Assembly: GCA_013314735.1 (NCBI GenBank)
Contig: JABUFD010000002.1
Span: 620,001-684,000 of the forward strand
DNA length: 64,000 bases
Reading direction: 5' to 3'
Origin: Anaerolineae bacterium
GTDB taxonomy: Bacteria; Chloroflexota; Anaerolineae; Anaerolineales; Anaerolineaceae
This document shows positions 4,615 through 32,836 of the stretch, in pieces. The position numbers and the translations under genes were made by a program. Below the pieces are notes generated by a model. It worked only from the letters and a program-made list of their open reading frames with translations, did no database searches and was not told the origin of the DNA. Each line of letters starts with the position of its first letter. The first letter of the stretch is position 1.

Positions 4615-4683
4615 GTGTGATTCATCGCGCACCTGGCAGGCATTTTGGGCGGTGAAAAAAATCTTCACTTCCCTGGCAACACT

Positions 4684-4712
4684 TTCAACCGCATGGCGGC
4701 GCGGGGTACAAT
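4684..4712 (+). promoter_or_regulatory. predicted sigma-70 promoter for the GH99-like gene
   Basis: TTCAAC at 4684-4689 and TACAAT at 4707-4712 are separated by 17 bp and lie about 25 bp before the start, which has AAGGAG as ribosome site. Confidence 0.55.
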
Positions 4713-4736
4713 CAGGGCAGACCCAAGGAGCCAGAG

Positions 4737-5894: not shown

Positions 5895-5897
5895 GGT

Positions 5898-7280: not shown

Positions 7281-7409
7281 GCGAACCTCCTTCAGCCGGC
7301 GAACGGAAATGACCGGTCTCTGTTCCCTCCATTGTACCTGCTCTCACGCAGTGGGGGGTGGGACGGATGCCGCAATTGAAAATGAAACAGGGGCGGAAAT
7401 CACCGCAGG

Positions 7410-8093: not shown

Positions 8094-8218
8094 GTGTACC
8101 TCCTGGATGAATGATGGTAATTATCCCATATCGGTGTGCCGGTTCGCAAGATTGTTCAAACACGCCAAATCTGCATCGCATGTGTCTGCCTAGAAAAATG
8201 CGATTAAACCATCGGTAT

Positions 8219-8249
8219 TTGTATGAATTGCGATAGTATGCTATACTAT
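8219..8249 (+). promoter_or_regulatory. promoter giving a leaderless mRNA, with overlapping inverted repeat
   Basis: TTGTAT at 8219-8224 and TATACT at 8242-8247 (extended by TG at 8239-8240) are 17 bp apart. Only 6 nt separate the -10 from ATG 8254, so transcription should begin at or next to the start codon. ATAGTAT (8233-8239) and ATACTAT (8243-8249) form an inverted repeat across the -10, a plausible autoregulatory operator. Confidence 0.65.
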
Positions 8250-8253
8250 TTTT

Positions 8254-9390
8254 ATGAAGATACCAAGGGTATTATCCACTCAAATCAAAGCCAATATCAT
8301 TCCCGGTAAAGTACTGGTTTTATATGGACCTCGTCAGGTTGGAAAGACAACCTTGTTGCGAGATCTGCTTCGGTCAGTAGAGGTGCGCAGCAAGTTTATC
8401 AATGCTGATGAATTAATCTACCGTGAAGCACTCTCCAGCCAGAATAAACAATTGCTGGGTGAATTGTTGGCTGATGCGCAATTACTGGCGATTGATGAAG
8501 CCCAGCGGGTGCCAGATATCGGGTTGAACCTGAAAATCCTTGTGGACTCTTTTCCGCATGCCGCCATCATCGCTACCGGGTCTGCTTCGTTTGACCTTGC
8601 CAACAAAATCAGTGAGCCACTGACGGGGCGAAAACTGACCATGTACCTGCATCCTGTGATGTATTCTGAATTGCAAGAGGCATTTGGCTCGTTTGAAGCA
8701 CGTATGCAGTTAAACCGTTGGCTGGTATATGGTGGTTATCCTGCCATTGTGACCACAGAGGACCCGGTACTGCGTGAACGTTTATTGGGTGAGTTGGTGG
8801 GTTCTTACTTGTATCGCGATATCCTTGAATTGGAAGGGGTGCGTAGGGCTGAGAAGATTGTCGATCTGCTGCGCCTGCTGGCATTCCAGATCGGACAGGA
8901 GGTATCGCTCAGTGAGTTGGCATCCAATCTGGCCATTAATCGGGCTACCGTGGAACGTTACCTGGATTTGTTGGAACAAGTATTTGTGATTTACCGTGTA
9001 CGTGGGTTTTCCCGCAACCTGCGAAAAGAGATCAGTAAAAATGCGCGTTATTATTTTTATGATAATGGTGTCCGCAACAGCTTGATCGCGAATTTTAATC
9101 CTCTTGAACTTCGGAACGATGTGGGACAGTTATGGGAAAATTTCCTGATGACGGAACGCTTGAAGCGCAACCAGGTCTACAACAGGCAAGTAAACCGATA
9201 TTTTTGGCGCACCTATGACCAGAAAGAAATTGATTCTATTGAAGAATATGGTGGAAATCTTCACGGATTCGAATTCAAGTGGAAGCAGGGTGAAATGAAA
9301 CCTGCTACGCGGATGGAATTTGAACAAGCGTACCCAAACTCGGTGTTAAAGACCATCAGCCAGGAAAATTTTGTTGAATTCCTCACCTGA
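8254..9390 (+). CDS. AAA_14 / DUF4143 ATPase
   Basis: 378 residues. Walker A is GPRQVGKTTLLRD near residues 25-37 and Walker B is LLAIDEAQRVPDIG near residue 75. The C-terminal half has the DUF4143 pattern: a winged-helix part (LASNLAINRATVERYLDLLEQ) followed by YYFYDNGVRN and a nuclease-like end with RYFWRT...EIDSIEEYGGNLHGFEFKW. Members are common accessory ATPases of uncertain role. There is no Shine-Dalgarno; the promoter points to a leaderless transcript. The gene is visibly richer in A/T than its neighbours and stands alone, which suggests horizontal acquisition. Confidence 0.85.
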   Translation: MKIPRVLSTQIKANIIPGKVLVLYGPRQVGKTTLLRDLLRSVEVRSKFINADELIYREALSSQNKQLLGELLADAQLLAIDEAQRVPDIGLNLKILVDSFPHAAIIATGSASFDLANKISEPLTGRKLTMYLHPVMYSELQEAFGSFEARMQLNRWLVYGGYPAIVTTEDPVLRERLLGELVGSYLYRDILELEGVRRAEKIVDLLRLLAFQIGQEVSLSELASNLAINRATVERYLDLLEQVFVIYRVRGFSRNLRKEISKNARYYFYDNGVRNSLIANFNPLELRNDVGQLWENFLMTERLKRNQVYNRQVNRYFWRTYDQKEIDSIEEYGGNLHGFEFKWKQGEMKPATRMEFEQAYPNSVLKTISQENFVEFLT

Positions 9391-9444
9391 TAATCTGGGG
9401 ATTTGATCGCGGATTGAATTGATCGTTTCCTGTTGATAATGAAA

Positions 9445-9471
9445 AAGCCAACCGCAGATTCGGGTTGGCTT
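9445..9471. terminator. bidirectional terminator hairpin
   Basis: AAGCCAACC and GGTTGGCTT form a perfect 9-bp stem with a 9-nt loop, lying between two convergent genes. An A-run precedes it on the plus strand, giving U residues for the minus-strand transcript; T-rich sequence follows on the plus strand. Confidence 0.7.
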
Positions 9472-9502
9472 CTGGTTTGATGGTCTCAGGGTCGGGGTAA
9501 TC

Positions 9503-10921
9503 TTAGCGCAGGCTGGGTGGTTTCCAATCGCCGGCGCCGGTGATGCGGGTGATGCGTCCGCCGTCGGGCAGGGGCATGTCGGCCCAGGTGCGTCCTTCGC
9601 CGTTGAACTGCGGCAACCATTCCGCCAGGGCGTCAAACATCTCGTCGCACATCGCCCACACTTCCGGCGGGTTGAGTACGGCACCGGTCAGCGGGTCATG
9701 CAGCACGGCCAGCTTGACGAGGTCGCGGTTGCCGGTGAGGGCGGCCTCGACCACCATTTCCTGTACGTTGACTGTCACCTTGCAAGTGGCGGCGCATTGC
9801 TGCGGCAGGGCGCCCATCCAGGCGGGATGCACGCCGGTGCGGTCGACGTAGCACGGCAGCTCCACCGTGCAGCCATCGGGGAGGTTATCGATCAGGCTGG
9901 TGTTGCCCAGGTTGAAGTGCCCACGGTAGGCACGCCCGGTTTCGAGGGCTTCGATGATGTAGGAGGCATGCTCATGGGAACGCTCACCCAGCTGGATCAG
10001 GGGCAGTTCACCGCTCATCAGTTTGGGGTAATTTTCCTCGTATTCGTGGCGGGTTTCGCGGCAAACGCGCAGGTATCCGCCAGTTTCGCCGTGGATCCAG
10101 GCATCGTAGCTGATCCACGAATCAATCTCATCCGGGCGCTTGCGGTACCACGGCACGTATTCGCTCAGGTGCCCGTTGGATTCGGTGGAATAGTAGCCGA
10201 AGCGCTTGAGGATGTCGATACGCACCTTTTCCTGGCGGGAGAAATCGGGATGCTGCTCGAAGGCTTCTGCCAGGAACGGCAGCATGTCCATCCCCTGGTA
10301 ACTGACCTGGGTGAACCAGGTCTGGTGGTTGATGCCGACGCAGTTGTAATCGACCTCATCCTGCGGCAGGCCCAGTGCCTGGGCAATCTGCCAGTGTCCG
10401 CCCAAAACGCCGTGGCACAGGCCGATCACCTGCACCCCGCCGGCGCGGCGCAGCGCCCAGGTATTCATCGCCATCGGGTTGGAGTAGTTGATCAGGATCG
10501 CATTGGGTTTGGCAACCTCGCGCATATCTTTGGCAATCTCGAGCAGCACCGGGATGGTGCGCAGGGCGTAGAAAATCCCGCCGGGGGCGAGGGTGTCGCC
10601 CACGCACTGGTCCACACCGTATTTAAGCGGAATCTCGATATCTTTGGCGAAGGCTTCCAACCCGCCCACGCGTACCAGCGAGAGCACGTAGTCAGCGCCG
10701 GTGATGGCTTCGCGCTGGCTGGTGGTGTCGATCACCGTGGCAGGCAGGTGGTTATCGGCGAGGAATTTGCGGGCGATGTTGCCCGCCATGGCTAGGCTGT
10801 TTGGGTTGATGTCCATGAAGCGGAACTCGGTTTCCCGCAGTTCAGGCACAGCCATCAGGTCAGCCACAAGGCGCTGGCAAAAGGTCAGGCTGCCCGCGCC
10901 GATGATCGCAATTTTCAACAT
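9503..10921 (-). CDS. GH4 alpha-glucosidase/alpha-galactosidase
   Basis: 472 residues from ATG 10921, which has AAGGAG 8 nt upstream; an upstream in-frame extension to 11002 is not needed. GH4 enzymes use NAD+ and Mn2+ in a redox-elimination mechanism. The N-terminal IIGAGSLTFCQRLVADLMA is the Rossmann NAD site. GLCHGVLGG carries the metal-binding Cys, and CVGINHQTWF the conserved Asn-His. FGYYSTESNGHLSEYVPWY is typical of the alpha-galactosidase/alpha-glucosidase branch. It is cytoplasmic and would act on imported disaccharides. The exact sugar cannot be read from the sequence. Confidence 0.9.
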   Translation of the reverse strand: MLKIAIIGAGSLTFCQRLVADLMAVPELRETEFRFMDINPNSLAMAGNIARKFLADNHLPATVIDTTSQREAITGADYVLSLVRVGGLEAFAKDIEIPLKYGVDQCVGDTLAPGGIFYALRTIPVLLEIAKDMREVAKPNAILINYSNPMAMNTWALRRAGGVQVIGLCHGVLGGHWQIAQALGLPQDEVDYNCVGINHQTWFTQVSYQGMDMLPFLAEAFEQHPDFSRQEKVRIDILKRFGYYSTESNGHLSEYVPWYRKRPDEIDSWISYDAWIHGETGGYLRVCRETRHEYEENYPKLMSGELPLIQLGERSHEHASYIIEALETGRAYRGHFNLGNTSLIDNLPDGCTVELPCYVDRTGVHPAWMGALPQQCAATCKVTVNVQEMVVEAALTGNRDLVKLAVLHDPLTGAVLNPPEVWAMCDEMFDALAEWLPQFNGEGRTWADMPLPDGGRITRITGAGDWKPPSLR

Positions 10922-10963
10922 GTTCTGGTTCTCCTTTATCCGGTTGCGGTATGCTATGGCTTG

Positions 10964-10969
10964 ATTATA
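10964..10969 (-). promoter_or_regulatory. -10 element of the GH4 gene
   Basis: TATAAT on the minus strand lies about 43 bp upstream of ATG 10921, leaving a short leader with AAGGAG. No clear -35 was identified. Confidence 0.4.
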
Positions 10970-11102
10970 ACGAACCCCCGGGGCTGCCGGGGTGGTTTTC
11001 ATTTACAGAAAAAGGATTGTTGGACCAGGCGCAGTTTTCCGCGGTTGCCCTGTCTTCTGCACTTTCGCGAATGTCGGCATCCCGCGGCGGGGTGGTTAAC
11101 AA

Positions 11103-11134
11103 GAACATTCTGCCGCCGTTGCGTCAGAATGTTC
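11103..11134. terminator. hairpin between the VWA gene and the GH4 gene
   Basis: GAACATTCTG and CAGAATGTTC form a perfect 10-bp stem around a 12-nt loop. On the minus strand it follows the VWA gene and precedes GH4, but only a weak T-run follows, so it may be a terminator or a regulatory structure. The rest of 10970-11211 shows nothing else. Confidence 0.4.
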
Positions 11135-11211
11135 CTCCCCTTCGAGCCGGTGCGCAATTCTCCCATTGCGCTGGCCAGCCCTGCCTGTTTACGAACGAAC
11201 GCCTGGTTCGC

Positions 11212-12480
11212 CTAAACTTCGTTTTGTTCCTCGCTGTCGTCGATGTTGCGGTCGCGGCTGCGGCGGTAAGTGTTGTAGTGCATGCGTTTGCGTTCTTCCT
11301 CACTCAGGCCATCGCGCATGCGCTCGCTGCGGTTGGTGAACAGCTGGCGGTCTTCGGCGCGCAGGTAATGCGCGGTGCCTTCCATGGCGCTGGCCATCAC
11401 CGCCTGGGCCTGGTCGCGCTTGCCCATCCGTTCCAGCAGGAGCGCTTCGCGGGTGGTGTCAGAAAGGTGCACCTTGCCGTAGCGTGCCATCATCTCGGCA
11501 TGGTAGGGCGCGTTTTCGCACGCCGCCAGCCCGGCATACTCGAACACGGCTGTCGTATCGGCAGAAAACTCGCTGCCGTCTTCCCCCCGGGCATGCAGGC
11601 TGAAGGTGACGCTGGCCTTGCCCGGCTCCGATTGCGGCGGCAGGTTGAGGATCAGGTACACGGCGCGTTCCTGCAATGCCACCAGGTCGCCGAGGAACAC
11701 ACGCAGCTGGCCCTCCTGAATCTGGTGTCGCCAGCCGCCCAGCACCTCAACGGTGGCACCAGCCGGCAGGAGGCAGCGCAGTTCAGCGCCTTTGGCCGTC
11801 ACCTGCACCAGTTCCTGCAATTCGGCCAGGAAAATTTCCGGGATGTGGCGCGGGTGCTCGATGAAGTAGAAATTCCCGCCGCCCTGGCTGCTCATGCGTT
11901 CCAGCAGCTGTTCGGAAAAGTCCACCCCAACCCCGAAGGTGCTGGTGGCAATGCCGCGTTCATGCAGGGCGGCGGCATGCTGCCCGAGTTCCTCCAGTGA
12001 GGTGATGCCCTGGTTGGCAAGCCCATCTGACAGCAGCAGCACGCGGTTGACCTGGTTGTCGGCCATGTGCCGGGCAACGGCTTCGCAGCCCATCAGCCAG
12101 CCGTCCGAAAGATTGGTCATCCCGCGCGGGAAAACCTCATCAATCGCGCTCAGGAAGTGGGCGCGGTTCTCCTCGGTCAGTTCCACGTTCGGCATCACCG
12201 TTTCGGCGATGTTATCATAGATGAACAAGCCGGCGCGATCATCGGCTTTGAGCATGCCGATCACGTGGCGTGCGGCCTGCTTCACGTACTCGATTTTTTC
12301 GCCCTGCATCGAGCCAGAGCGGTCGATCACCAGCCCCAGGTTGAGGGGCATGCGTTGTTCCTGTTTGCGCTGGGTGGCGGGGGCCTGCAGCTTGATCTCC
12401 ACCACGCGCCGGGTGGCATGCTCTTTGGCGATCAATGCTTTTTCCAGCGTCGCCTCGATTTGTAAAGAAGGTTGGCTCAT
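11212..12480 (-). CDS. von Willebrand factor A domain protein, partner of MerR regulator
   Basis: 422 residues from ATG 12480 (MSQPSLQIEATLEK). The VWA domain starts near residue 46. Its MIDAS motif DRSGSM (Asp53, Ser55, Ser57) is intact, followed by RGMTNLSDG and LLLSDGLAN, the other metal-site loops. A beta-rich domain follows (about residues 230-330) and a helical tail with AHYLRAEDRQLF and a Glu/Arg-rich end. No signal peptide or membrane anchor is present, so it is cytoplasmic. It lies 37 bp downstream of the merR-like gene on the same strand and is almost certainly in its operon. VWA domains bind protein partners through the metal; the partner here may be the regulator itself (inference). 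Confidence 0.88.
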   Translation of the reverse strand: MSQPSLQIEATLEKALIAKEHATRRVVEIKLQAPATQRKQEQRMPLNLGLVIDRSGSMQGEKIEYVKQAARHVIGMLKADDRAGLFIYDNIAETVMPNVELTEENRAHFLSAIDEVFPRGMTNLSDGWLMGCEAVARHMADNQVNRVLLLSDGLANQGITSLEELGQHAAALHERGIATSTFGVGVDFSEQLLERMSSQGGGNFYFIEHPRHIPEIFLAELQELVQVTAKGAELRCLLPAGATVEVLGGWRHQIQEGQLRVFLGDLVALQERAVYLILNLPPQSEPGKASVTFSLHARGEDGSEFSADTTAVFEYAGLAACENAPYHAEMMARYGKVHLSDTTREALLLERMGKRDQAQAVMASAMEGTAHYLRAEDRQLFTNRSERMRDGLSEEERKRMHYNTYRRSRDRNIDDSEEQNEV

Positions 12481-12517
12481 TTCGTTTTCATTCTCCTGTT
12501 CTCGTTCGGGGTACCGG

Positions 12518-13156
12518 TTAACTGTGCCGGATTTTGGTGAAGTTCTGGCTGATCCAGTCCAGCAGGCGCTGGAATTCCTGTTCAAATTGCTGGTAAATGG
12601 CTTCGGCGATGTGGATCTCGAAGCCGGGGAAGACCTGGATGCGGCGCCATGGTTCGCCAGGCGGGTTGCCCCAACTGCGCTTGCGCGGCGGCGGGGTGAC
12701 CGACTGGCGCTTGCGGATGTCATGGATGTAATCGAGCGCTTCCTGGTCGGGCGGGGTTTCCGCCGGCTTCCCCCCGCGCAGGGTGTGGATGTAATCCAGC
12801 GCGCTGGTTTCGCGCAAGGATTTTGGCGATGCTGCGATGGGCAGCGAATGGTTTTCGACCATGTCCAGCGCCGGGGGGGCGGCTTCGACGGCATCCAACT
12901 GCTGGAGCATTTCCCGCACCTGGGCATCCGTCAGCTGCGCCATGCGTTCGCGGATTTCCTTCAGCGGCAGGTAGGCGTCCTTCCAGCGCCGGATGAGTTC
13001 CAGCCGGTCCAGGTAACTGGCATCATACAGCGCGTAGCGCCCGGAAGTTTCGGCGGGGGGCAGGAGGCCCTCATTGACATAGTAGCGGATCGTCCGTACC
13101 GTCACCCCCGCGGCATCCGCCAGTTCACTGATCGTCATTTCTTCGTTATCGTTCAT
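12518..13156 (-). CDS. MerR-type transcriptional regulator with duplicated ALDYIH motif
   Basis: 212 residues. The N-terminal 75 residues are a MerR winged helix-turn-helix (TISELADAAGVTVRTIRYYV, then GRYALYDASYLDRLELIRR). The effector half is not a metal or drug domain. It holds two copies of one short motif, ALDYIHTLR (about 117-125) and ALDYIHDIR (about 138-146), in a Pro/charged, probably disordered linker, then a helical end (AIYQQFEQEFQRLLDWI). No Cys metal site is present. The repeated motif looks like a docking peptide, perhaps for the VWA protein encoded next. The start sits 6 nt from its -10, so the mRNA should be leaderless. Confidence 0.87.
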   Translation of the reverse strand: MNDNEEMTISELADAAGVTVRTIRYYVNEGLLPPAETSGRYALYDASYLDRLELIRRWKDAYLPLKEIRERMAQLTDAQVREMLQQLDAVEAAPPALDMVENHSLPIAASPKSLRETSALDYIHTLRGGKPAETPPDQEALDYIHDIRKRQSVTPPPRKRSWGNPPGEPWRRIQVFPGFEIHIAEAIYQQFEQEFQRLLDWISQNFTKIRHS

Positions 13157-13162
13157 GACAGT

Positions 13163-13191
13163 AGTATAGCGCTATTACGTAATACTGTCAA
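13163..13191 (-). promoter_or_regulatory. MerR-type promoter with palindrome in the spacer; leaderless start
   Basis: Read on the minus strand, TTGACA (13191-13186) and TATACT (13168-13163) are 17 bp apart. The spacer contains the 12-bp palindrome TATTACGTAATA at 13173-13184, the position at which MerR proteins bind. Only 6 nt lie between the -10 and ATG 13156. Confidence 0.75.
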
Positions 13192-13498
13192 TATATTGGT
13201 GAGGGGAATCTTGCTGATATTTTTCGGAAAAACCAGGTCCTGAAGGTGGAAATAAATATTTATGTGAAAGGATGGGCTTAAATCATCATTTTGTTTCGAT
13301 GGTTGCGGTGCAAACCAGGGGATTATGGGTGCTGATTAACCAATCACTGTCGTTTTTGGAAAGTACTGTTTTACAACAACACCCTATTTCTGCAAAATAC
13401 ATTCCCCTCCGTTTTCCCGACATTAAAAAATCCTGCTTCGGTTTCGGGGGGAAATCCCGTATAATGGAATTAAGCCAACATTTCAACCTGGAGAGGAC
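13192..13498. other. non-coding region between merR-like gene and mini membrane gene
   Basis: AT-richer stretch. TATAAT at 13460-13465 with weak TTCGGT 17 bp upstream is a likely promoter for the gene at 13499. A short inverted repeat TGATT-AACC-AATCA lies near 13335. Otherwise I see no gene or RNA. Confidence 0.4.
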
Positions 13499-13696
13499 AT
13501 GAACCATAGCCCGAACCATCATCGTCCGCACCACGAATCGATCGAGGTGACGGAAGAAATGCCCGGCAGGCCGTTTGACACCCAGCCGCCCAGCCTGTGG
13601 AAACAGGCGCTGACCATTACGGTATTCCTGGCAGGGCTTGCCCTGCTGGCCACCGCGATGGCGTACGGCATGGCGTGGCTCGTCAACCTCGGTTAA
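13499..13696 (+). CDS. small His-rich single-pass membrane protein
   Basis: 65 residues. The N-terminus is rich in His (MNHSPNHHRPHHESIEV), followed by an acidic/Pro stretch and one hydrophobic helix (ALTITVFLAGLALLATAMA) ending in a short tail. Ribosome site GGAGAGG lies 4 nt before the ATG, with a -10 upstream, so it is probably expressed. The His cluster could bind a divalent metal. No family is recognised. Confidence 0.65.
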   Translation: MNHSPNHHRPHHESIEVTEEMPGRPFDTQPPSLWKQALTITVFLAGLALLATAMAYGMAWLVNLG

Positions 13697-13819
13697 GCCC
13701 TTCATCCGCAGCCCCTCAATTTTTCTAACAAAGGGCGTGCGCTGGGGGAAAAGTGTGCCCAAATATCCCCGCTTCAACCATTCCCGCGCGGCAGGCGCGG
13801 CTTTGTTACGCCAACCGCA

Positions 13820-14536
13820 CTACCACTCGCGCCGCAGGGCGGCACCGAGCCATTCACAGCGGTTGAGGTATTCGATGCGCCAGCGCTCGAGGTCGAACCC
13901 GTCGCCGCGTTCGGGGCCGTAACTGAAGCACGAGATGGCGGCGTTTTCGCTTTCGAACCAGTAATTGACCGGGTGAATGTTGTTGACCAGCACATCCACA
14001 AAGCGCCCGAAGAACCCGCCGTGGCTCACCAGGGCGATACGTTCGGTGGTGCCGCCGAACTGGGCCAGCAGGTGGCGGATCACCTGGTCGGCGCGTCCGG
14101 TGCGTTCGGCGCGCGGTTCCACCTCGGGGCGGTTCCACCAGCCCTGGTCGCCGATCTCCGGTCCAATCGTGAACTGGGGGAAGGCGGCGCTGATCTCGGC
14201 GCGGTTCATGCCCGGCGCGCCGACGTGTTCTCCGGTGTCGGGGTCATTCCCCACGCAGCCGCCCTCTTCGTGCAGCGGTTTCCACACCATTTTGGGGCAA
14301 TCATACAGCGCTTCGAACGCCGCCGCGGTCTGCAGGGTGCGCAGGAAGGGGCTGATGTAGATGCGACTGAAGCCGAATTCTGCACGGTGTTCCGCCAGGA
14401 AGGCGGCCAGCGCGGCGGCCTGCTGCCGCCCGAGGTCGCTGATTGGCGGATCGGGCAGGCGGTCGGTGTCATCACGGTATTGGTGCCACAGGCAGTTGTT
14501 GACAGATTCGGCATGGCGGATGAAGAATATTTTCAT
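13820..14536 (-). CDS. histidine phosphatase superfamily protein (phosphoglycerate mutase-like)
   Basis: 238 residues from ATG 14536, so that FFIRHAESVNN lies at the N-terminus. RHAES carries the catalytic His that is phosphorylated. Other landmarks are PISDLGRQQAAALAAFL, IYISPFLRTLQTA with the second Arg, and ALVSHGGFFGRFVD with the second catalytic His. It is cytoplasmic. The substrate could be a sugar phosphate or a small phosphoester; the superfamily is broad. AAGGAAG lies about 12 nt upstream of this ATG. A longer N-terminal extension to 14563 is possible but adds only MACERKPHP. Confidence 0.85.
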   Translation of the reverse strand: MKIFFIRHAESVNNCLWHQYRDDTDRLPDPPISDLGRQQAAALAAFLAEHRAEFGFSRIYISPFLRTLQTAAAFEALYDCPKMVWKPLHEEGGCVGNDPDTGEHVGAPGMNRAEISAAFPQFTIGPEIGDQGWWNRPEVEPRAERTGRADQVIRHLLAQFGGTTERIALVSHGGFFGRFVDVLVNNIHPVNYWFESENAAISCFSYGPERGDGFDLERWRIEYLNRCEWLGAALRREW

Positions 14537-22756: not shown

Positions 22757-24901
22757 ATGATCGAACAACTCACCTCCGCGCAGGCGGAACTTCTGGCACA
22801 GCCATTACAACGACGCCTCTTTCTCAGCGGTCCGGCCGGCAGCGGCAAGACCACGGCCGGGACGGCGCGCGCCTTGCAATGGATCCAGGCAGGCATTCCG
22901 GCCGAGGAAATCCTGATCCTGGTGCCGCAGCGCTCACTGGCACTGCCGTATTATGAAGCCCTGCGTGACCCCGCCCTGCCGCCTGGCGGGGTAAGTGACA
23001 TCCTCACTTTCGGCGGCCTCGGGCAGCGGCTGATCGCGTTGTTCTGGCCGCTGATCGCGGAGGAGGCCGGCTTTCAGCATCCTGACCGCCCGCCTTCTTT
23101 CCTCACCCTCGAGACCGCCCAGTACGTCCTTTCCGGCATCATGGAACCGCTGATCGATGAGGACTACTTTATCGCTGTCAACATGGATCCCAACCGCCTG
23201 CTGAGCCAGGTGATCGACAATCTCAACAAGGCCGCCGCCATCGGCATTGACCACCGCACGGTGGCAGAATGCCTTAGCGCGGCGTGGGTGGGCAAACAGG
23301 CCGACCAGCCGCTGGTGTACCAGCACGCCCAGGAGGGCGCCAACGCTTTCCGCGCTTATTGCTACGCCGAGAACCTGCTGGATTTTTCGCTCCAATTGGA
23401 GCTGTTCACGAACCATGCCTGGCATCTGCCGGCGGTGCGGGAATGGCTGCGCAGCCAGTACCGCTATTTGATCTATGACAATATCGAAGAGGATGTGCCC
23501 GCCGTGCATGACCGCGTGCTGGAATGGCTGCCGGATTTTGACGGTGCGCTGTGCATTCTCGATGACGATGCCGGCTACCGCCTGTTCCTCGGTGCTGACC
23601 CGGAATCCGCCTTACGCCTGGCGGCGGAAGCGGATGCGGAGATTGCTTTCCCGCAATCACTGGTGACCCCGCCGGTGGTCGCTGAACTGGATGACGCTCT
23701 GCAGGTCTGTATCCGCCAGCCCGGGCGCGGTGCACTGCCCGACGGCCTGCGTGATGGCTTTGAGCTGGAAACCAGCGCGCGCTTCCATCCAGAGATGATC
23801 CAGCATGCCTGCCTGCGGGCGCGCCAGCTGGTGGAAAAAGGCGTGCCGCCGGAGGAGATCGTGATGCTGGCGCCGTTCCTTTCGGATTCGCTGCGCTTCT
23901 CATTGGAGCGCGAACTGCGCGCGCACGGGCTGGAAAGCTATACCACCCGCCCCTCACGCAGCCTGGGCGATGAACCGGTGACGCGCTGCCTGTTGGCGCT
24001 GGCGCGCCTGGCCAACCCCGCCTGGGGCGATGCCCCGGCGGAAGCCGATGTGACCCAGGCGTTGGTGCTGGCGATTGACGGTTTCGACCTGGTGCGTGCC
24101 TCGCTCCTGCGGCGCATCATCTACCGTCCCCAGCGCGAAGGCGCCGAACGCCTGGCGTCGTTCAGCGAGATCCAGCCGGACATGCAGGAGCGCATCAGCT
24201 ACCAGGCCGGCCAACGCTACGAAGACCTGCGCGGCTGGCTGTTGTTTGAACAGCAGAGCCACGACCATCCTGACCTGGATGTGTTCCTCTCGCGCCTGTT
24301 TGGCGAGGTGCTTTCCCAGCCGGGTTTTGCTTTCCACCGCGATCTGGAAGCCGCCGCCGTTACCGCACGCCTGATCGAATCGGTGCAGAAGTTCCGGCGC
24401 GGGATGGCCTTCCTGCTGGAACCGGAACCGCTGGGACCATCACTGGCCGACCGGGTGGGGGCGGAGTACGTGCGCATGCTCGAACAGGGTGTGATCGCTG
24501 CCCAATACCTGCAAACCTGGGAACCGCAGCCCGCCGGGACGATCCTGCTGGCGCCGGCCCATACCTTTTTAATGAGCAACCGACCCGCCCGTTGCCAGTT
24601 CTGGCTGGATGCCGGCAGCAGCGGCTGGTGGCAGCGCCTCGACCAACCCCTTACCCACCCGGTGGTACTCAGCCGCCGCTGGGAACCCGGCCGTAAATGG
24701 ACCGACGTGGAGGAGGTGGCGTTTAACACCGCCCAGCTGGCGCGCCTCACGCGCGGCCTGCTGCGGCGCTGCGCGGAGAAGGTGTTCATTTACACCGCCG
24801 AAATTGACCAGAGCGGGTACGAGAACAGCGGACTGCTGCTGCAGGCCCTGCAGAACCTGCTGCTGCGCCTGCCGCCCGAAACGGGGGCCGGCCGTGTTTA
24901 A
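22757..24901 (+). CDS. superfamily I helicase-like protein, AddB/UvrD-related, degenerate motif II
   Basis: 714 residues from ATG 22757; a TATAAT at 22648-22653 suggests transcription starts after the earlier in-frame start codons. Walker A is GPAGSGKTTAGTA near residue 25, followed by EEILILVPQRSLALPYYEAL and DILTFGGLGQRLIAL, as in UvrD-type motifs Ia and Ib. Where DExx is expected the sequence reads YLIYDNIEED, and the C-terminal helicase motifs V and VI are hard to see, so it is probably a non-translocating subunit like AddB. It is followed at once by a true helicase and an Fe-S nuclease. No nuclease motif is evident in this protein. Confidence 0.75.
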   Translation: MIEQLTSAQAELLAQPLQRRLFLSGPAGSGKTTAGTARALQWIQAGIPAEEILILVPQRSLALPYYEALRDPALPPGGVSDILTFGGLGQRLIALFWPLIAEEAGFQHPDRPPSFLTLETAQYVLSGIMEPLIDEDYFIAVNMDPNRLLSQVIDNLNKAAAIGIDHRTVAECLSAAWVGKQADQPLVYQHAQEGANAFRAYCYAENLLDFSLQLELFTNHAWHLPAVREWLRSQYRYLIYDNIEEDVPAVHDRVLEWLPDFDGALCILDDDAGYRLFLGADPESALRLAAEADAEIAFPQSLVTPPVVAELDDALQVCIRQPGRGALPDGLRDGFELETSARFHPEMIQHACLRARQLVEKGVPPEEIVMLAPFLSDSLRFSLERELRAHGLESYTTRPSRSLGDEPVTRCLLALARLANPAWGDAPAEADVTQALVLAIDGFDLVRASLLRRIIYRPQREGAERLASFSEIQPDMQERISYQAGQRYEDLRGWLLFEQQSHDHPDLDVFLSRLFGEVLSQPGFAFHRDLEAAAVTARLIESVQKFRRGMAFLLEPEPLGPSLADRVGAEYVRMLEQGVIAAQYLQTWEPQPAGTILLAPAHTFLMSNRPARCQFWLDAGSSGWWQRLDQPLTHPVVLSRRWEPGRKWTDVEEVAFNTAQLARLTRGLLRRCAEKVFIYTAEIDQSGYENSGLLLQALQNLLLRLPPETGAGRV

Positions 24902-27146
24902 CCCGCGCCCCAGGCAAAAAGCCGTGGTTGATTTTGACGCCGGGCGCATGGGCGTGGCTGCCGTACCCGGCAGCGGTAAAACCCAGACGCTTTCGTACCT
25001 TGCCGCGCGCCTGATCCGCGAACAAAAGGTGGACCTCAGCCGCGGGCAGGAGGTACTGGTGGTGACGCTCACCAATTCGGCGGTGGGCAATTTTGAAAGC
25101 CGCATCAGCCGTTTTATCGAGGGCTTTGGCCTGATGCCGCGCATGGGCTTCCGCGTGCGCACCCTGCACGGCCTGGCGCATGATATTGTGCGTGAACGGC
25201 CGGATTTGGTCGGCCTGCCGACGCAGTTCAACATCATCGATGACCGCGAATCGGAATTAATGCTGCAAGCCTCGGTGCGGGATTTCCTGCTGATGAAACC
25301 ATCACTGCAGGAAACCTATTTCAGTTCCACTGTACGCATGACAACAGATCGTGCCAAAGACTGGAATGACCTTGCTGTCGAGAGCTGCCGCAACTTCATT
25401 CGCACCGCCAAGGACCTCCAGCTGGAGGCCGATGATGTGCGCGGGCTGGTGGGGGAGATGCGTTTCAGCCATCCCCTGGTGACCCTCGGCATGGCCGTCT
25501 ACAGTGATTATGCCCGCAAGCTGGCCCTGCGGGAGGGGGTGGACTTTGACGACCTGATCCGTTACGCGCTTGCTGCCCTGCAAACCGATCCCGCTTACCT
25601 GGCGCGCCTGCGCGCGCGCTGGCCGTTTGTGCTGGAAGATGAAGCCCAGGATTCCAGCCACCTGCAGCAGCAGATCCTGGCGTTGATCAGCGGCGAGGGC
25701 GGCAATTGGGTGCGGGTGGGCGACCCCAACCAGGCGATCTATGAGACCTTCACCACCGCTGATCCGCGCCTGCTGCGCGATTTCATCCAGCAGCCCGGTG
25801 TACAGCGTGCCGACCTGCCCAATTCGGGGCGCTCGACTGCATCCATCATTCGCCTTGCCAACCGCCTGGTGGAATGGACCGTGCATGAGCATCCCATTCC
25901 GGTCTTGCGCGATGCCCTGTTTGAAACCTACATCGAACCCACCCCGCCCGGCGATCCCCAGCCCAACCCGCCGGATGATGAAAGCCGTATCCGCATTGTC
26001 AACCCCACCAAGCGCGTCAAATCAGAAGGTGAGATCCAGTTCACGCTGGAGGCGATCCAGCAATGGATGGCGAATGAGGATTACCAGAACCAGTCACTGG
26101 CAGTGCTGGTGCCCACCAACCGCCACGGTGAAAGCATGATCAAGGCTTTGCGCGAGCATGACATCCCGTATGTGGAATTGCTGCGCAACACCACGGAAAC
26201 ACGCCAGACCGCGGCGCAGATCGAGGCGATTCTGTATGCCCTGGCAAATCCCGACCAGCCGCGCTTATTAAGGAAAGCCTACGGCGCGCTGCGCCTGCCG
26301 CGCCAGGTGCAGGACCCGGCTGAACGTGCTGTCGTCAAGCGCGCTGCCGACCTGCTGCTGAAATGCGCCAACCTGGAAGAATATCTCTACCCGCGCGGCG
26401 GGGCCGATTGGCTGATGGACCGCGCCGCCGAGGAGGACCCGCAGGTGGTGGAGGAACTGGCCTGGCTGCGCGAGCGCGTGGTGCGCTGGCAGGAAGCCGT
26501 GCGCCTGCCGGTGGACCAGCTGATCCTGACGATTGCCGGTGACCTGTATACCCAGCCGGTGGACCTGGCGCTGAGCCACAAATTCGCGCAGATGCTGGAA
26601 TATTACGCCCGCAACCACCGCGAATGGAGTTTGCCGGAATACGCCGCCCAGCTGCACGATATCGCTTCCGCGCGGCGCGGTTTTTCGGGGCTGTCCGAAA
26701 ATGACATCGGCTTTGACCCCGATGACCACCGCGGCGAGGTGACGGTTGCCACCATTCACAAGGCCAAGGGGCTGGAATGGGATATCGTCTACCTGCTGTC
26801 GGTTAATAACTATGATTTCCCTTCGCTTGACCCGTTTGACAGCTATGTGTCTGAGAAGTGGTTCATCCGCGATGAATTGAATTTGCAGGAAGAAATGCTC
26901 AGCAAGCTCAAGGCCCTGGCAGCGCGGGATATGGAACTGCTGGAACTGCCGGAAGGTGCCGCCACCATTGCGGCGCGGGAAGGTATCGCCGAGGAGCGCC
27001 TGCGCCTGCTGTACGTGGGCATCACCCGCGCCCGTAAGCAATTGAACCTGCTGTGGAACGTGGGCCTGCGTGAGAAATGCCAGCCCGCCCGTGCCCTGCA
27101 GGAATTGTACGCCTGGTGGAAGGAGCATCATGATGACAGGGAATAA
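24894..27146 (+). CDS. UvrD/PcrA-type superfamily I DNA helicase
   Basis: 750 residues from GTG 24894, which overlaps the end of the preceding gene by 8 nt. All core motifs are readable: Walker A AAVPGSGKTQTL (about 22-33), EDEAQDSS (about 247), VGDPNQAIYETF, TIHKAKGLEWDIVYL (about 619) and LLYVGITRARKQLNLLW (about 706). It should translocate 3' to 5' along single strands. There is no C-terminal nuclease domain, unlike AddA or RecB; the nuclease is encoded by the next gene. The upstream in-frame extension to 24609 runs inside the previous gene and is not credible. Confidence 0.9.
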   Translation: MFNPRPRQKAVVDFDAGRMGVAAVPGSGKTQTLSYLAARLIREQKVDLSRGQEVLVVTLTNSAVGNFESRISRFIEGFGLMPRMGFRVRTLHGLAHDIVRERPDLVGLPTQFNIIDDRESELMLQASVRDFLLMKPSLQETYFSSTVRMTTDRAKDWNDLAVESCRNFIRTAKDLQLEADDVRGLVGEMRFSHPLVTLGMAVYSDYARKLALREGVDFDDLIRYALAALQTDPAYLARLRARWPFVLEDEAQDSSHLQQQILALISGEGGNWVRVGDPNQAIYETFTTADPRLLRDFIQQPGVQRADLPNSGRSTASIIRLANRLVEWTVHEHPIPVLRDALFETYIEPTPPGDPQPNPPDDESRIRIVNPTKRVKSEGEIQFTLEAIQQWMANEDYQNQSLAVLVPTNRHGESMIKALREHDIPYVELLRNTTETRQTAAQIEAILYALANPDQPRLLRKAYGALRLPRQVQDPAERAVVKRAADLLLKCANLEEYLYPRGGADWLMDRAAEEDPQVVEELAWLRERVVRWQEAVRLPVDQLILTIAGDLYTQPVDLALSHKFAQMLEYYARNHREWSLPEYAAQLHDIASARRGFSGLSENDIGFDPDDHRGEVTVATIHKAKGLEWDIVYLLSVNNYDFPSLDPFDSYVSEKWFIRDELNLQEEMLSKLKALAARDMELLELPEGAATIAAREGIAEERLRLLYVGITRARKQLNLLWNVGLREKCQPARALQELYAWWKEHHDDRE

Positions 27147-27236
27147 ACCCGCGTTGATCGCCCATGCACACCGCGCACCCACCCGGTTCTGGCAGCCTGT
27201 TTTTTCCAATCTGCGTGTTCAAACGGGAGGCCGGCG

Positions 27237-28124
27237 ATGAGTGACAGCCCTGGAAAAAATGCTTCCAACCATCCCCCGGCGGCTTCTGACGTGTTGGAAA
27301 AAACCACCCATTTTTCCCAGTACAGCCTGCAGGATTTTGTCGACTGTCCGCGGCGCTATGACCTGCGCCACCGGCGCAAACTGCAATGGCCGGCGGTGCA
27401 ATCGCTGCCGGTGCTGGAGCAGGAAGAGCGCATGGCCCGTGGAGAACAATTCCACCGCCTCGTGCAGCAGCACCTCAGCGGTATCCCCGTAGAAAAGATC
27501 GAAGCCCGCATCCACGATCCGATCCTGCTGGCATGGTGGGGCAACTTCACTGAATATGACCCGTTGGCGCTGCTCCCGCCGCGCCGCCTGGCGGAATACG
27601 CCCTCAGCGCGCCCTTCCTCGGCTATCGCCTGTTGGCCAAATATGACCTGCTGGCAATTGCCCCCGGCGAAACCGCGCACATCATGGATTGGAAGACCGC
27701 CGAACTGCGCCCCAGGGGGGAAATTCTGCGCGCCAAAGTGCAAAGCCGCCTGTACCCGTTCCTGCTGGCGCTGGGGGGGGAACGCCTGTTTGGCGGAACC
27801 GCTCCCAAGCCGGAACAGATTCGCATGACCTACTGGTTCGCGGCCTTCCCCGAAGCCCCCGAGGAGATCGGCTACAGCAAAACCCAGTTCAACCGCGACC
27901 GCGATTACCTCGCCGCGCTGATCGAAGATATCTTCGCGCGTAGTGCCGCCGATGATTTCCCGCCCACCGACAACCTCAAGCGCTGTGACTACTGCCAGTA
28001 CCGTTCGTACTGCGAGCGCGGGGTCGAGGCGGGGGCGATCGAAGAAGTGGATGACGAAAGCCTGCTGGAACAGGATCCCGGCTTTACGATCGACTTTGAA
28101 CAGATCGGGGAGATTGCCTTTTGA
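27237..28124 (+). CDS. PD-(D/E)XK nuclease with Fe-S cluster (RecB/Cas4/AddB C-terminal type)
   Basis: 295 residues. FSQYSLQDFVDCPRRYDLRH gives the first Cys; CDYCQYRSYC near residues 249-258 gives the other three, together a 4Fe-4S cage. The active site is the pattern GEQFHRLVQ (His), then YDLLAIAPG and IMDWKTAELRP (Asp-x-Lys), and the QxxxY-like helix RLYPFLLAL. This is the nuclease module normally fused to AddB or RecB. Here it is a separate gene. GGGAGG lies before ATG 27237, and the RecJ gene overlaps its stop as TTGA. Confidence 0.9.
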   Translation: MSDSPGKNASNHPPAASDVLEKTTHFSQYSLQDFVDCPRRYDLRHRRKLQWPAVQSLPVLEQEERMARGEQFHRLVQQHLSGIPVEKIEARIHDPILLAWWGNFTEYDPLALLPPRRLAEYALSAPFLGYRLLAKYDLLAIAPGETAHIMDWKTAELRPRGEILRAKVQSRLYPFLLALGGERLFGGTAPKPEQIRMTYWFAAFPEAPEEIGYSKTQFNRDRDYLAALIEDIFARSAADDFPPTDNLKRCDYCQYRSYCERGVEAGAIEEVDDESLLEQDPGFTIDFEQIGEIAF

Positions 28125-30505
28125 GCGCATCACGGCGGGTGTGGGTTGCGGCGCAGCCTCCGGCGGACGTGCCGGCGGAACTGCTCGATTTCTTTGCGGG
28201 CGATGCCCTGCTGGCAGGATTGCTGGCGCGGCGCGGCATTGCCACCGCCGAAGCCGCGCGTGCCTTCCTGTACCCGGATGCCTACATTCCCACCCCGCCC
28301 GAGGAATTGCCCGAGCTGGACCTTGCCGTGGAGCGCATCCTGCGCGCGTTGGACGATGAGGAGCGGATTGGCATCTGGGGGGATTTCGATGTCGATGGGC
28401 AGACCTCGACCAGTTTGCTGGTAGGCGCGTTGCAGCAATTGGGCGCGGATGTGGTGTTTCACATCCCGCTGCGGCGTGAGGAGAACCACGGCGTGCGCCT
28501 GCCGTTTTTGGAGCGCTTCATCGAAGAGGAGCATCCGGCCCTGATCATCACCTGCGATACCGGCATCAGCGCGCATGATGCCGCTGCCTATGCCGATGCG
28601 CGCCGCGTGGATTGGATCATCACTGACCATCATGCCCTGCCGCGCGGCGGCCTGCCGATGGGGATCGCGCGTATCAATCCGCAGCGCACCCCGCCCGGGC
28701 ACCCCCTGCATGGGCTGACCGGTGTGGGCACCGCTTACAAACTGATCGAAGCGGTGTGCAGCGCGCTGGGGCAGCCGGAAATCGCTGAAGCCCAGCTGGA
28801 CCTGGTGGCGCTGGGGACGATCGCGGATGTGGGCGAGCTGAGCGGCGAGAACCGCTACCTGGTGCAGCGCGGGATGGAAGTGCTGCGGCGCAATGCCCGG
28901 ACCGGGCTGAAGGCATTGATGGCGGGGGCGCGGGTCAACCCGGCCGCACTCAACGGCGACCACATCGGTTTTTCACTGGCACCGCGCATGAACGCCCTCG
29001 GGCGGCTGGATGATGCCGGGCGCATGGTGGAATTGATGACCACGGTCAATGAAGCCCGTGCCAGCCAGATGGCGCTGTACCTGGAAGGCCTGAACACCCT
29101 GCGCAAGGAACGCCAGGAATCGATCCGGCGTGAGGTGTTTGAACTGGCTGAGAACAATCCCGCCTGGCTGGAGTTCAACGTGATCATCCTCCACAAGCCG
29201 GATTGGGAAGGCGGGGTGGTGGGGATTGTGGCGAATGCGCTGGTGGAAGCCTATGGCAAGCCCGTGGTACTGCTGACCGGCGACCGCGACGGGGTGTGCG
29301 GCGGGTCGGCGCGTTCGATCGAGGGGATATCGCTGATCGATGCCATTAACCACAACCATGACCTGCTGATCAACGGCGGGGGACACGCGATGGCGGCCGG
29401 GGTTTCACTGCGCATCGCGGATATCGAGGCCTTTCGCCAGGGGATGCACCGCGCGGTGGCGCTGCAGGCGCCGCAGGGATTGCCGCCGCTGACGCTGGAG
29501 GTGGAATGCGAACTGCCGCTGGCGCAGGCGCACCTGCCGTTCGCGGAATCGTTGGAACGCCTGGCGCCGTTCGGCGCGGGCAATCCCCGACCGGTGTTTT
29601 TTACCAGCGATGTGTCACTGCGCTCCGCCCTGCTGTTCGGGCGCGAGGAAAACCACCGCAAGTTGTTCGTGGCCGATGCCGAAGATAACCTGCTGGAGCT
29701 GATCTGGTGGAAGAGCGCGGAGGAGGAATTGCCCGAGGGGCGCTTCGATGTTGCCTATACCCTGCACCCGGTGACCAGCGGCGGGCAGAATGGGCTGGAA
29801 GCGCTGTGGGTGGCCTACCGCCAGCGTGAAGCCCAGCGCCCGGCCGTGGTGGAACGGCCGCCGCTGGCCGTGGAAGATTGGCGTTCGCTTTCTGTGGGGG
29901 AGGTAGCAGTACGTGCCCCAGGCCTTGTGCAGGGCCGTGTTGAAGGGCAGTTGGGGGGAGAATCTCCGCTTGACCGAAGCATTGCCTATCACGAAGGCCC
30001 CGGCGCGGCACTGGCCGGGGGGGCGAATCGCCTGGAATTGCGCCCGGCGGAAACCCTTCTGCTGTACAGTATCCCGCCATCGGCGGCGGTGCTGCACTCA
30101 CTGCTGGAAACGGTGCAGCCGCGGCAGCTGGTGCTGGTGTGCCAGGGCGGCGGCGAACTCGATCGTCCCCAGGCACTGCTGACACACCTCGGCGGGATGG
30201 TCAAGTATGCCCTCAATCGTGACGGGCGGCTGCCCCTCACCCGCCTGGCGGCGGCCACCGGCCAGCGGGAAGCCGTGATTGCCAAAGCAATCGAGGTGCT
30301 GTGCGCCATGGGCCAGTGCCGCGTGACGGAAGAAGATGAGATCGCCCTGCGGGTGAGTGCCGCCGGCGCCGCCCCCGAACCTGCCCTGCAGGCAGCCCTG
30401 CTGCGTGAATTGGCATACCTGCTGGAGGAAACCCGTGCCTTCCGTAATTACCTGCGCGGTGCGGCGCCTGACTGGTTCCGCGGACTGGCAGAACACAGCC
30501 GTTGA
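28121..30505 (+). CDS. recJ: single-strand-specific DNA exonuclease RecJ
   Basis: 794 residues. DHH-family motifs: WGDFDVDGQTSTSLL near residue 88, LIITCDTGISAHDAA, and IITDHHALPRG near 168; the DHHA1 part has INGGGHAMAAGVSL near 420. RecJ degrades single strands 5' to 3' in recombination and base-excision repair. The protein is longer than the common 560-580 residues; the last 200 residues include a winged-helix-like stretch (RLPLTRLAAATGQREAVIAKA). Start is TTG 28121 overlapping the upstream stop. It completes a four-gene DNA-end-processing run. Confidence 0.9.
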   Translation: MSASRRVWVAAQPPADVPAELLDFFAGDALLAGLLARRGIATAEAARAFLYPDAYIPTPPEELPELDLAVERILRALDDEERIGIWGDFDVDGQTSTSLLVGALQQLGADVVFHIPLRREENHGVRLPFLERFIEEEHPALIITCDTGISAHDAAAYADARRVDWIITDHHALPRGGLPMGIARINPQRTPPGHPLHGLTGVGTAYKLIEAVCSALGQPEIAEAQLDLVALGTIADVGELSGENRYLVQRGMEVLRRNARTGLKALMAGARVNPAALNGDHIGFSLAPRMNALGRLDDAGRMVELMTTVNEARASQMALYLEGLNTLRKERQESIRREVFELAENNPAWLEFNVIILHKPDWEGGVVGIVANALVEAYGKPVVLLTGDRDGVCGGSARSIEGISLIDAINHNHDLLINGGGHAMAAGVSLRIADIEAFRQGMHRAVALQAPQGLPPLTLEVECELPLAQAHLPFAESLERLAPFGAGNPRPVFFTSDVSLRSALLFGREENHRKLFVADAEDNLLELIWWKSAEEELPEGRFDVAYTLHPVTSGGQNGLEALWVAYRQREAQRPAVVERPPLAVEDWRSLSVGEVAVRAPGLVQGRVEGQLGGESPLDRSIAYHEGPGAALAGGANRLELRPAETLLLYSIPPSAAVLHSLLETVQPRQLVLVCQGGGELDRPQALLTHLGGMVKYALNRDGRLPLTRLAAATGQREAVIAKAIEVLCAMGQCRVTEEDEIALRVSAAGAAPEPALQAALLRELAYLLEETRAFRNYLRGAAPDWFRGLAEHSR

Positions 30506-32104: not shown

Positions 32105-32539
32105 TTATTTGAGTTGAGTGGTTTGATCCGTGATTCTTTTCTGGCGGCTGGTTTGTGTCAATACCATTCTCTTCCATTCGAGTTTGTCGCTGCTGCCAAA
32201 ATTAATCAGCAGTCCCAGCTGGCGATGAGACGCTTTCAGGTAGTTGAGTAACTGGGCTTCTTCATTCCTACCCAGTTGATGGATCGCTTTTAACTCAAGA
32301 ATGATATGCCCATAGGCTATCATGTCAGCACAAAATACCTTTGTCAGCGGCGTACCTTTGTAATCAATCGGCAGGTCGACCTGATGGGCAAAAGGAATCT
32401 TGCGCAGTTGCAATTCAATCATCAAGGCTTCTTCGTACACACTCTCCAGGAACCCGTTTCCGAGTGCATTGTAAACCTCCAACGCCGCGCCAATGATGGA
32501 ATAGGTTTGTTCTTTGTAGAGTAATGATTGTGCATTCAT
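32105..32539 (-). CDS. GxxExxY family protein
   Basis: 144 residues from ATG 32539, which has AGGAGGG upstream. ALGNGFLESVYEEAL contains the family motif G-x-x-E-x-x-Y, followed by FAHQVDLPIDYKGTPL, FCADMIAYGHIILELKAI and QLLNYLKASHRQLGLLINFG. The Asp...Glu-x-Lys arrangement resembles PD-(D/E)XK nucleases, but no activity is established for this family as far as I know. The gene sits alone between two blocks of the dispersed repeat, and its composition is A/T-richer than the surroundings, so it may travel with the repeats (inference). Confidence 0.88.
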   Translation of the reverse strand: MNAQSLLYKEQTYSIIGAALEVYNALGNGFLESVYEEALMIELQLRKIPFAHQVDLPIDYKGTPLTKVFCADMIAYGHIILELKAIHQLGRNEEAQLLNYLKASHRQLGLLINFGSSDKLEWKRMVLTQTSRQKRITDQTTQLK

Positions 32540-32645
32540 GGCAACCCTCCTGCAATGAATTCGCGAACCCTGTTGATATTCCACAGGAGGTGTGCAACGA
32601 TGTGGGCTGTTTTGATATGCCATATATCCATTAAAATATTGATTG

Positions 32646-32836
32646 ATCAACCGCGGATCATACAGATTGGCGCGGATGGAAATGGATTTTGTTTTTATGC
32701 TTTTATCCGCGCAGATTCGCGTGATCCGTGGTTTGTTTTTTTATTAACCGCGGATCACATAGATTGACGCGAATACACACGGAATTTTTTATCTATCCTT
32801 TATCTGCGTAGATTCGCGTGATCCGCGGTTAATTTG
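32646..32836. repeat. dispersed inverted-repeat block C
   Basis: Two hairpin units of the same family (AACCGCGGATCA...TGATCCGTGGTT and AACCGCGGATCACAT...TGATCCGCGGTT), using GGATCA in place of GGATAAC. They lie directly upstream of the GH13 promoter. With the GxxExxY promoter side (32540-32645), nothing else is seen in this gap. Confidence 0.8.

Follow-up and report, generated by a model that had tools for sequence, protein, structure and literature searches.

Gene content of the locus

The window, by which we mean the whole 64,000-nucleotide stretch of Anaerolineae DNA that was analyzed, contains a cassette of four plus-strand genes that we call P1, P2, P3 and RecJ, and its presence at the place given in an earlier, sequence-only reading was confirmed (Table 1). 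P1 and P2 overlap by 8 bp, with the GTG start codon of P2 (picked by eye) at 24894 and the P1 stop codon ending at 24901. A gap of 90 bp separates P2 from P3, and the stop codon of P3 and the start codon of RecJ share the sequence TTGA (28121-28124). The cassette is flanked by an alpha/beta hydrolase-like gene on one side and a proC-like gene on the other, both named by eye. Nearby, a second nuclease-fold gene on the minus strand (32105-32650) encodes a PDDEXK_3 protein, which we take to be of the GxxExxY type.

Table 1. Features of the four-gene cassette and their positions in the window.
Feature	Position	Strand	Basis
P1, 714-aa UvrD-fold helicase-like subunit without nuclease domain (predicted)	22757..24901	+	AF2 model and fold match
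P1 Walker A, GPAGSGKT	22829..22852	+	G25, G28, G30 and K31 at least 90% conserved (80 aligned sequences)
P1 degenerate motif II, DNIEED	23477..23494	+	Conservation in 80 aligned sequences
P2, SF1A helicase motor (AddA/UvrD-like), nuclease absent	24894..27146	+	Pfam domains, hhalign to AddA motor
P2 motif II, DEAQD	25638..25652	+	Invariant, 26 aligned sequences
P3, free PD-(D/E)XK nuclease, 295 aa, four-Cys Fe-S type cage (predicted)	27237..28124	+	PDDEXK_1, fold match
P3 catalytic core, D137...D151-W-K153	27645..27695	+	Invariant, 19 aligned sequences
P3 Cys 250, 253 and 259	27984..28013	+	With Cys37 (27345-27347), the predicted Fe-S type cage
P3 C-terminal tip, DFEQIGEIAF, after acidic linker	28092..28121	+	Last residue aromatic in 50/61
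RecJ of 794 aa, extended at its C-terminus, start codon TTG	28121..30505	+	DHH, DHHA1, RecJ_OB, TIGR00644

The sequence-only reading had described the gene products as a Walker-A protein with an abnormal motif II, an intact SF1 helicase that lacks a nuclease domain, a free PD-(D/E)XK nuclease with four cysteines and, next in the run, RecJ. All four descriptions were borne out by the domain and conservation analyses given below. The last gene, whose start overlaps the P3 stop, is a RecJ by its domains and by its TIGR00644 score of 450 bits against a cut-off of 397.

P1 is predicted to be a motor-fold subunit with a degenerate motif II

P1 is a conserved protein without a family name in the libraries searched (Pfam and NCBIfam): in Pfam the window protein resembles DEAD and UvrD below threshold only, and it reaches no cut-off in either library. 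The AddB family models (Pfam ADDB_N and addB) matched 0 of 39 aligned P1 members at E ≤ 0.01, and in a control a true AddB from the class matched ADDB_N at 7e-19. The motif II of P1 reads D241-N242-x-E244-E245-D246, with E244, E245 and D246 invariant in 80 aligned sequences and D241, N242 and the Walker lysine K31 each conserved in at least 90% of the same set. E244 and E245 were still invariant in 39 more diverse sequences, and the P1 of Salinibacter ruber has DNVEEG. P1 shows the AddB-type combination of a Walker A motif without a catalytic motif II; in the AddB proteins of the class, the site corresponding to motif II reads VDGFD (from a consensus, by eye).

The AlphaFold (AF2) model of P1 (pLDDT 91.9, pTM 0.90) has a full SF1A fold that best matched UvrD (Z 29.4, rmsd 4.8 over 505 residues). 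AdnB gave Z 25.8 (rmsd 5.2, 622 residues) and AddB gave Z 21.8 (rmsd 6.5, 604 residues, AddB 2-695). Profile comparisons scored UvrD at 2e-12, AdnA at 6e-7 and AddB at 4e-4 over 73 positions, and hhalign returned probabilities of 95.4 for the helicase part of AddB, 95.6 for P2 and 94.0 for AddA. UvrD is nearest to P1 by both fold and profile, and therefore neither measure marks P1 as AddB-like as such. Sequence and model together point to a motor-fold subunit without special AddB likeness. Among relatives, the P1 frames of three genomes carry N-terminal extensions, and some P1 matches from family f5 contain an in-frame TGA, which is the end of the gene in the one that was compared (G138, L067).

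P2 resembles the AddA motor and P3 a fused nuclease domain

P2 (752 aa) has helicase/ATPase domains only (Pfam UvrD-helicase, 3e-43; UvrD_C, 1e-24), with no nuclease match. Using hhalign, it was aligned to the AddA motor with a probability of 100 over AddA residues 9-842 of 1134, i.e. with the nuclease left out, so P2 does not have the AddA arrangement of a motor fused to a C-terminal nuclease. Among solved chains, P2 scored best against PcrA and Rep. It resembles GajB of the Gabija system through its motor only; the pairing of a GajA nuclease with a GajB helicase was not found, and GajA is not among the PADLOC matches listed for P1-P3 and RecJ (for P2, the best 25 of 52).

P3 matched PDDEXK_1 at 2e-25. 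H73, D137, D151-W-K153, Q169 and Y173 are invariant in 19 aligned sequences, and in another 39 sequences D151 is conserved at 90% or more without being invariant. The four cysteines (37, 250, 253 and 259) are invariant in both sets. The hhalign probability was 97.5% for the nuclease end of AddB and 27.5% for the AddA nuclease. The fold closest to the AlphaFold model (pLDDT 85.3) was the nuclease domain of AdnA (Z 18.2, rmsd 3.3-3.7, 232-234 residues, AdnA 764-1039), followed by the cyanobacterial Cas4-family protein ACE1 (Z 16.1); AddB gave Z of about 14.8-14.9 (rmsd 3.6, 232 residues, AddB 776-1135). The P1 model (AddB 2-695) and the P3 model (AddB ~776-1135) cover both sides of the helicase/nuclease junction of AddB. 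P3 is thus predicted to carry an AddB-type Fe-S PD-(D/E)XK nuclease, with the Fe-S cluster predicted from the cysteines. The AddB fusion of a helicase-like part to an Fe-S nuclease is absent, since P1 and P3 are separate genes. Across the class, the strong full-length P3 matches among those listed lie in frames of ~260-450 aa.

P3 ends in a conserved C-terminal tip

P3 proteins continue for 28-44 residues beyond the last cysteine, with a variable acidic linker followed by a conserved tip, a tail that fused AddB lacks: in nine AddB proteins from the class, 6-17 residues follow the last cysteine. Of 61 distinct P3 proteins, 50 have an aromatic terminal residue, compared to 1/131 for P1, 2/93 for P2 and 0/48 for RecJ, the latter three being sets that were not made distinct and that include some members cut at locus ends. 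Among 60 P3 proteins (two of 62 rows were left out, one truncated by a contig boundary and the other containing masked sequence), entropy was 1.3-2.65 bits over the last ten positions and 2.6-3.7 bits at positions -13 to -32. A strict tip pattern matched 33 of the 60. The exceptions include six related copies with a shorter form and single copies that deviate at the very end, and the motif is absent from two diverged copies of the window's own family (L200 and L203). The tip is kept in S. ruber as DLDDVEEIEF.

The P3 tip is similar to SSB tips found in the class (EEIPF and DEEFPF are examples), which were read by eye with wrong-frame rows excluded. The own genome has five SSB-domain matches, the best-scoring of which (L238) apparently ends without the usual terminal aromatic tip. 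In the published description of Deinococcus RecJ, the C-terminal domain is where the SSB tip binds, its last Phe occupying a pocket (PMC4846377). The profile of the cassette RecJ extends to residue 643 of drRecJ, with the SSB-pocket residues aligned only tentatively. P3 would be a docked nuclease, probably held through its conserved tip; the docking site may be P1/P2, RecJ, or both.

P1, P2 and P3 share a pattern of gain and loss

We searched 199 genomes of the class, taking P1 and P3 matches at E ≤ 0.001 and P2 matches at E ≤ 1e-60, and found P1 in 115, P2 in 111 and P3 in 109. Before counting, we dropped six genomes with weak P1 matches (E 1e-5 to 4e-4) and nine with P3 matches at E 2e-16 or weaker, one of which was a 44-residue piece beside P2. 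All three genes were then present in 94 genomes, none in 85, two in 18 and one in 2, with P1 in 109. Presence agreed in 193 genomes for P1-P2 and in 182 each for P1-P3 and P2-P3, and for every pair none of 2000 within-family shuffles reached the observed agreement. Ten of the 13 families that are mixed for P1 contain both all-three and none genomes, although several of the latter are incomplete assemblies. P1, P2 and P3 are therefore gained and lost together, within families too, and they persist together even when far apart or on different contigs (e.g. in G111). Of the 109 P1-positive genomes, 13, some of them fragmented, have P1 and P2 but no counted P3; four of the 13 belong to family f5 and have listed completeness of 95-99%, and the motors may therefore be retained in the absence of P3.

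Among the matches listed from 301 genomes of the phylum, all full-length P1 proteins came from the same class, and the others were short or weak motor matches. A mirror-tree analysis of 42 loci, with the duplicates L081 and L101 removed, gave partial correlations given RecJ of 0.74 for P1-P2, 0.45 for P1-P3 and 0.38 for P2-P3. The values with RecJ itself were similar (P1-RecJ 0.57 and P3-RecJ 0.51 given P2; P2-RecJ 0.03 given P1), and thus partnership and shared ancestry are not separable by this measure, nor is P3 singled out over RecJ. In L200 (G359, own family) and in the genus g43 genomes G038, G070 and G136, P1, P2 and P3 all score far below most of their sisters, as if the three had sped up jointly.

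Gene order and coexistence with fused AddAB

Gene order was examined in 80 named loci, counting at each step only the loci with room. P2 lies within 150 bp downstream of P1 in 33/58 loci, P3 follows P2 in 31/46, and RecJ adjoins P3 in 19/32. A check of order conservation in Anaerolineae, which the sequence-only reading had proposed, gave a divided answer: P1-P2-P3 order is kept in all six own-family relatives drawn, but RecJ is adjacent in only three of the six, and a sizeable share of the class has the cassette genes dispersed. The linkage of RecJ to P1-P2-P3 is optional. In one genome with scattered genes (G111, L173:7725-9691), P3 and a gene whose product, on inspection by eye, resembles a NYN/DUF88-type protein are arranged back to back.

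A long fused helicase-nuclease is present in at least 38 of 109 P1-positive and at least 20 of 90 P1-negative genomes, a count (at least 58 genomes, frames ≥750 aa) in which AddB-like and UvrD-Cas4-like fusions are mixed. P1 is found in 22 of 31 AddA-positive genomes. We rejected the idea that the cassette replaces AddAB, as the earlier claim could be read, because there is no avoidance: phi is +0.14, and agreement is 111/199 against a within-family shuffle mean of 105.7. The presence of AddAB in many relatives makes a separate task for the cassette possible. L168-L170, L177 and L184 contain neighboring genes of AddB and AddA size, with the L177 pair verified by domain. Helicase-like proteins of ~950-970 aa are encoded at L180:1084-3939 and L181:4685-7594 in class genomes possessing P1 and P2 as well; the L180 protein has UvrD and Cas4-like PDDEXK_1 domain matches. 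In a quick tree, P1, P2, AddA, AddB and PcrA each formed their own clade, and a recent fission of a local AddAB is therefore not favored, albeit weakly given the long branches.

The own genome was searched for a fused enzyme, another check proposed earlier. This genome (4.09 Mb, 95.5% complete) contains no AddA at E ≤ 1e-40. Its only PDDEXK_1 proteins are P3 and a 173-aa Cas4-like protein, and its only UvrD_N proteins are P2, a PcrA-like protein and a NERD-helicase; no protein has both domains, so no RecB-type or AddA-type fused motor-nuclease was found. Genes for Mre11/SbcD-like, Rad50/SbcC-like, NurA and HerA proteins lie within ~12 kb of each other (L227, C9:563000-580000, 2266-14508) and give this genome a resection set of the archaeal type. 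RecF is present as well, and thus other end-processing routes exist alongside the cassette.

A plasmid of Salinibacter ruber carries the four-gene set

Of 72,556 plasmid records, three match P1 and one covers it: pSR56 of the salt-loving bacterium Salinibacter ruber M8, from another phylum (Rhodothermota), for which we found no paper in the open-licence literature. Its order of P1 (annotated "hypothetical protein"), P2, P3 and RecJ is that of the window, and the four proteins are 41, 40, 40 and 37% identical to their window counterparts and up to 45-48% identical to other class copies. In a quick P2 tree rooted with AddA and PcrA, the S. ruber protein falls inside a fully supported 41-row class set, with some class rows outside; the placement hints at transfer, in a tree with long branches. 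The pSR56 RecJ matches cassette RecJs at 45% over 774 residues, nearly full length, whereas the remaining plasmid RecJs among the matches listed cover at most 68% of the window RecJ, which suggests that RecJ traveled together with the P1-P2-P3 set. Upstream of P1, and separated from it by one small gene, pSR56 encodes an XRE-family regulator (L258:8008-9186) whose profile matches are strong for RmrA and weaker for CapP/CapH, making DNA-damage control possible. The plasmid also has type I restriction genes and a DpdF-like helicase.

Discussion

The likely reading of P1-P2-P3 is that they form a three-subunit helicase-nuclease of the AddAB/AdnAB kind with a separate, docked nuclease, both complex and activity being predicted. 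The B-type subunit would be cut at the helicase/nuclease junction and the A-type subunit would be nuclease-less, so that one nuclease serves the complex. P2 would bind the DNA end and unwind it as the sole ATP-driven motor. P1 would keep ATP binding but lack the usual catalytic Glu, acting as scaffold and strand guide as in AddB, and P3 would dock on the motors, probably by its C-terminal tip, and cut the emerging strand. RecJ, often co-encoded, would trim the 5' strand to leave 3' single strands for RecA. Complex formation, unwinding, cutting, docking and a role in recombination are what we infer from comparison. The sequence-only reading had proposed AddAB function with the parts kept separate and RecJ added. 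Its core is supported by the matches of P2 and P3 to the AddA motor and AddB nuclease, by joint gain and loss, by the four-gene order on pSR56 and by the lack of any AddA- or RecB-type fused enzyme among the own-genome matches; the remainder is not supported, as RecJ is adjacent in only 19 of the 32 loci with room, P1 and P2 lie outside the local AddB and AddA clades in the quick tree, AddAB often coexists with the cassette, and Mre11-Rad50-NurA-HerA genes share its genome. The failure of all 39 P1 proteins to reach ADDB_N, the closeness of P1 to plain UvrD and the 13 of 109 genomes without a counted P3 also count against an enzyme of the AddAB kind.

Alternatively, the four products could be independent repair enzymes that share an operon, with P2 and P1 acting as a UvrD-like translocase, P3 and RecJ working separately on flaps or gaps, and no stable complex. 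RecJ is usually an enzyme of the RecFOR pathway, and RecF is encoded in the own genome. The scattering of the genes across a good part of the class, the genomes with motors only and the best scores of P2 against PcrA and Rep are all as expected of such enzymes, but their joint loss within families exceeds that of shuffles, and P3 matches a nuclease domain that is elsewhere fused to such motors; we regard this explanation as quite improbable. A defense machine that degrades invading linear DNA, retained and spread as a module against phages, is also unlikely. The restriction genes, DpdF-like helicase and RmrA-/CapP/CapH-matching regulator on pSR56 leave room for that role, and the many cassette-positive relatives with AddAB would have no need of a second repair machine. 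Nevertheless, the cassette is widespread in the class, the distances of P1, P2, P3 and RecJ correlate, and the neighbors in the window are hydrolase- and proC-like genes. Moreover, PADLOC held no match to P1 (E ≤ 0.001) or RecJ (E ≤ 0.1), no P1 relative was confirmed in viral contigs, and no P3 match was found in phage records.

Beyond the three-subunit helicase-nuclease that we favor, a more ambitious view, possible but doubtful, is that bacterial end-resection machines have a fourth class, represented by the cassette: a movable four-gene unit of motor, helper, docked nuclease and its own RecJ. An SSB-like peptide at the C-terminus of the nuclease (D-F-E/D-Q-I-x-E-I-x-F) would hold it or hand it over, and could also bind in pockets for SSB, e.g. 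the one reported on RecJ. To our knowledge, the known bacterial enzymes of the AddAB kind have the nuclease fused to a motor, and control of the nuclease has been studied with that tether in place. If the cassette is a natural free-nuclease version, nuclease and motor could be examined, deleted or exchanged independently of each other, and a free nuclease would show whether a peptide dock can stand in for a tether. P1 fills an annotation gap, given that it reaches no Pfam or NCBIfam cut-off and that 39 relatives lack an AddB model match. Carriers of cassette genes include the named, growable strains Anaerolinea thermolimosa IMO-1, Longilinea arvoryzae KOME-1 and Salinibacter ruber M8.

Comparison with known systems

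Among the open-licence papers listed, no title or abstract opening describes the three-part set. A two-gene precedent, by its published description, is a predicted operon, mostly of Clostridiales, in which UvrD and Cas4-like genes are unfused and the context is not indicative of defense (PMC5704561). Helicase and nuclease are separate there as in the cassette, but there are two genes, and the text of that description mentions no P1-like subunit and no RecJ. With AddAB (RexAB), the cassette shares an A-type SF1A motor, a Walker-A B-type subunit with a broken motif II and a predicted Fe-S PD-(D/E)XK nuclease. In contrast, AddA and AddB are each fused to a nuclease, whereas the cassette has one separate nuclease with its own tail, and P1 misses the ADDB_N model. 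AdnAB, which is confined to Actinobacteria according to a published account (PMC6452273), provides the nearest fold for P3 in its AdnA nuclease domain, and P1 fits the AdnB motor; however, AdnA and AdnB are fused motor-nucleases, and P1, P2 and P3 do not have the form of two subunits with a motor and a nuclease each. NurA-HerA of bacteria and archaea likewise keeps motor and nuclease separate for end resection, but it is built from other protein families and the own genome has a copy elsewhere. RecBCD is a three-subunit helicase-nuclease with a single active nuclease, and the cassette would likewise have one nuclease and three subunits. The RecBCD nuclease is fused to RecB, its second motor is the SF1B protein RecD and the nuclease domain of RecC is inactive, whereas the cassette nuclease is free.
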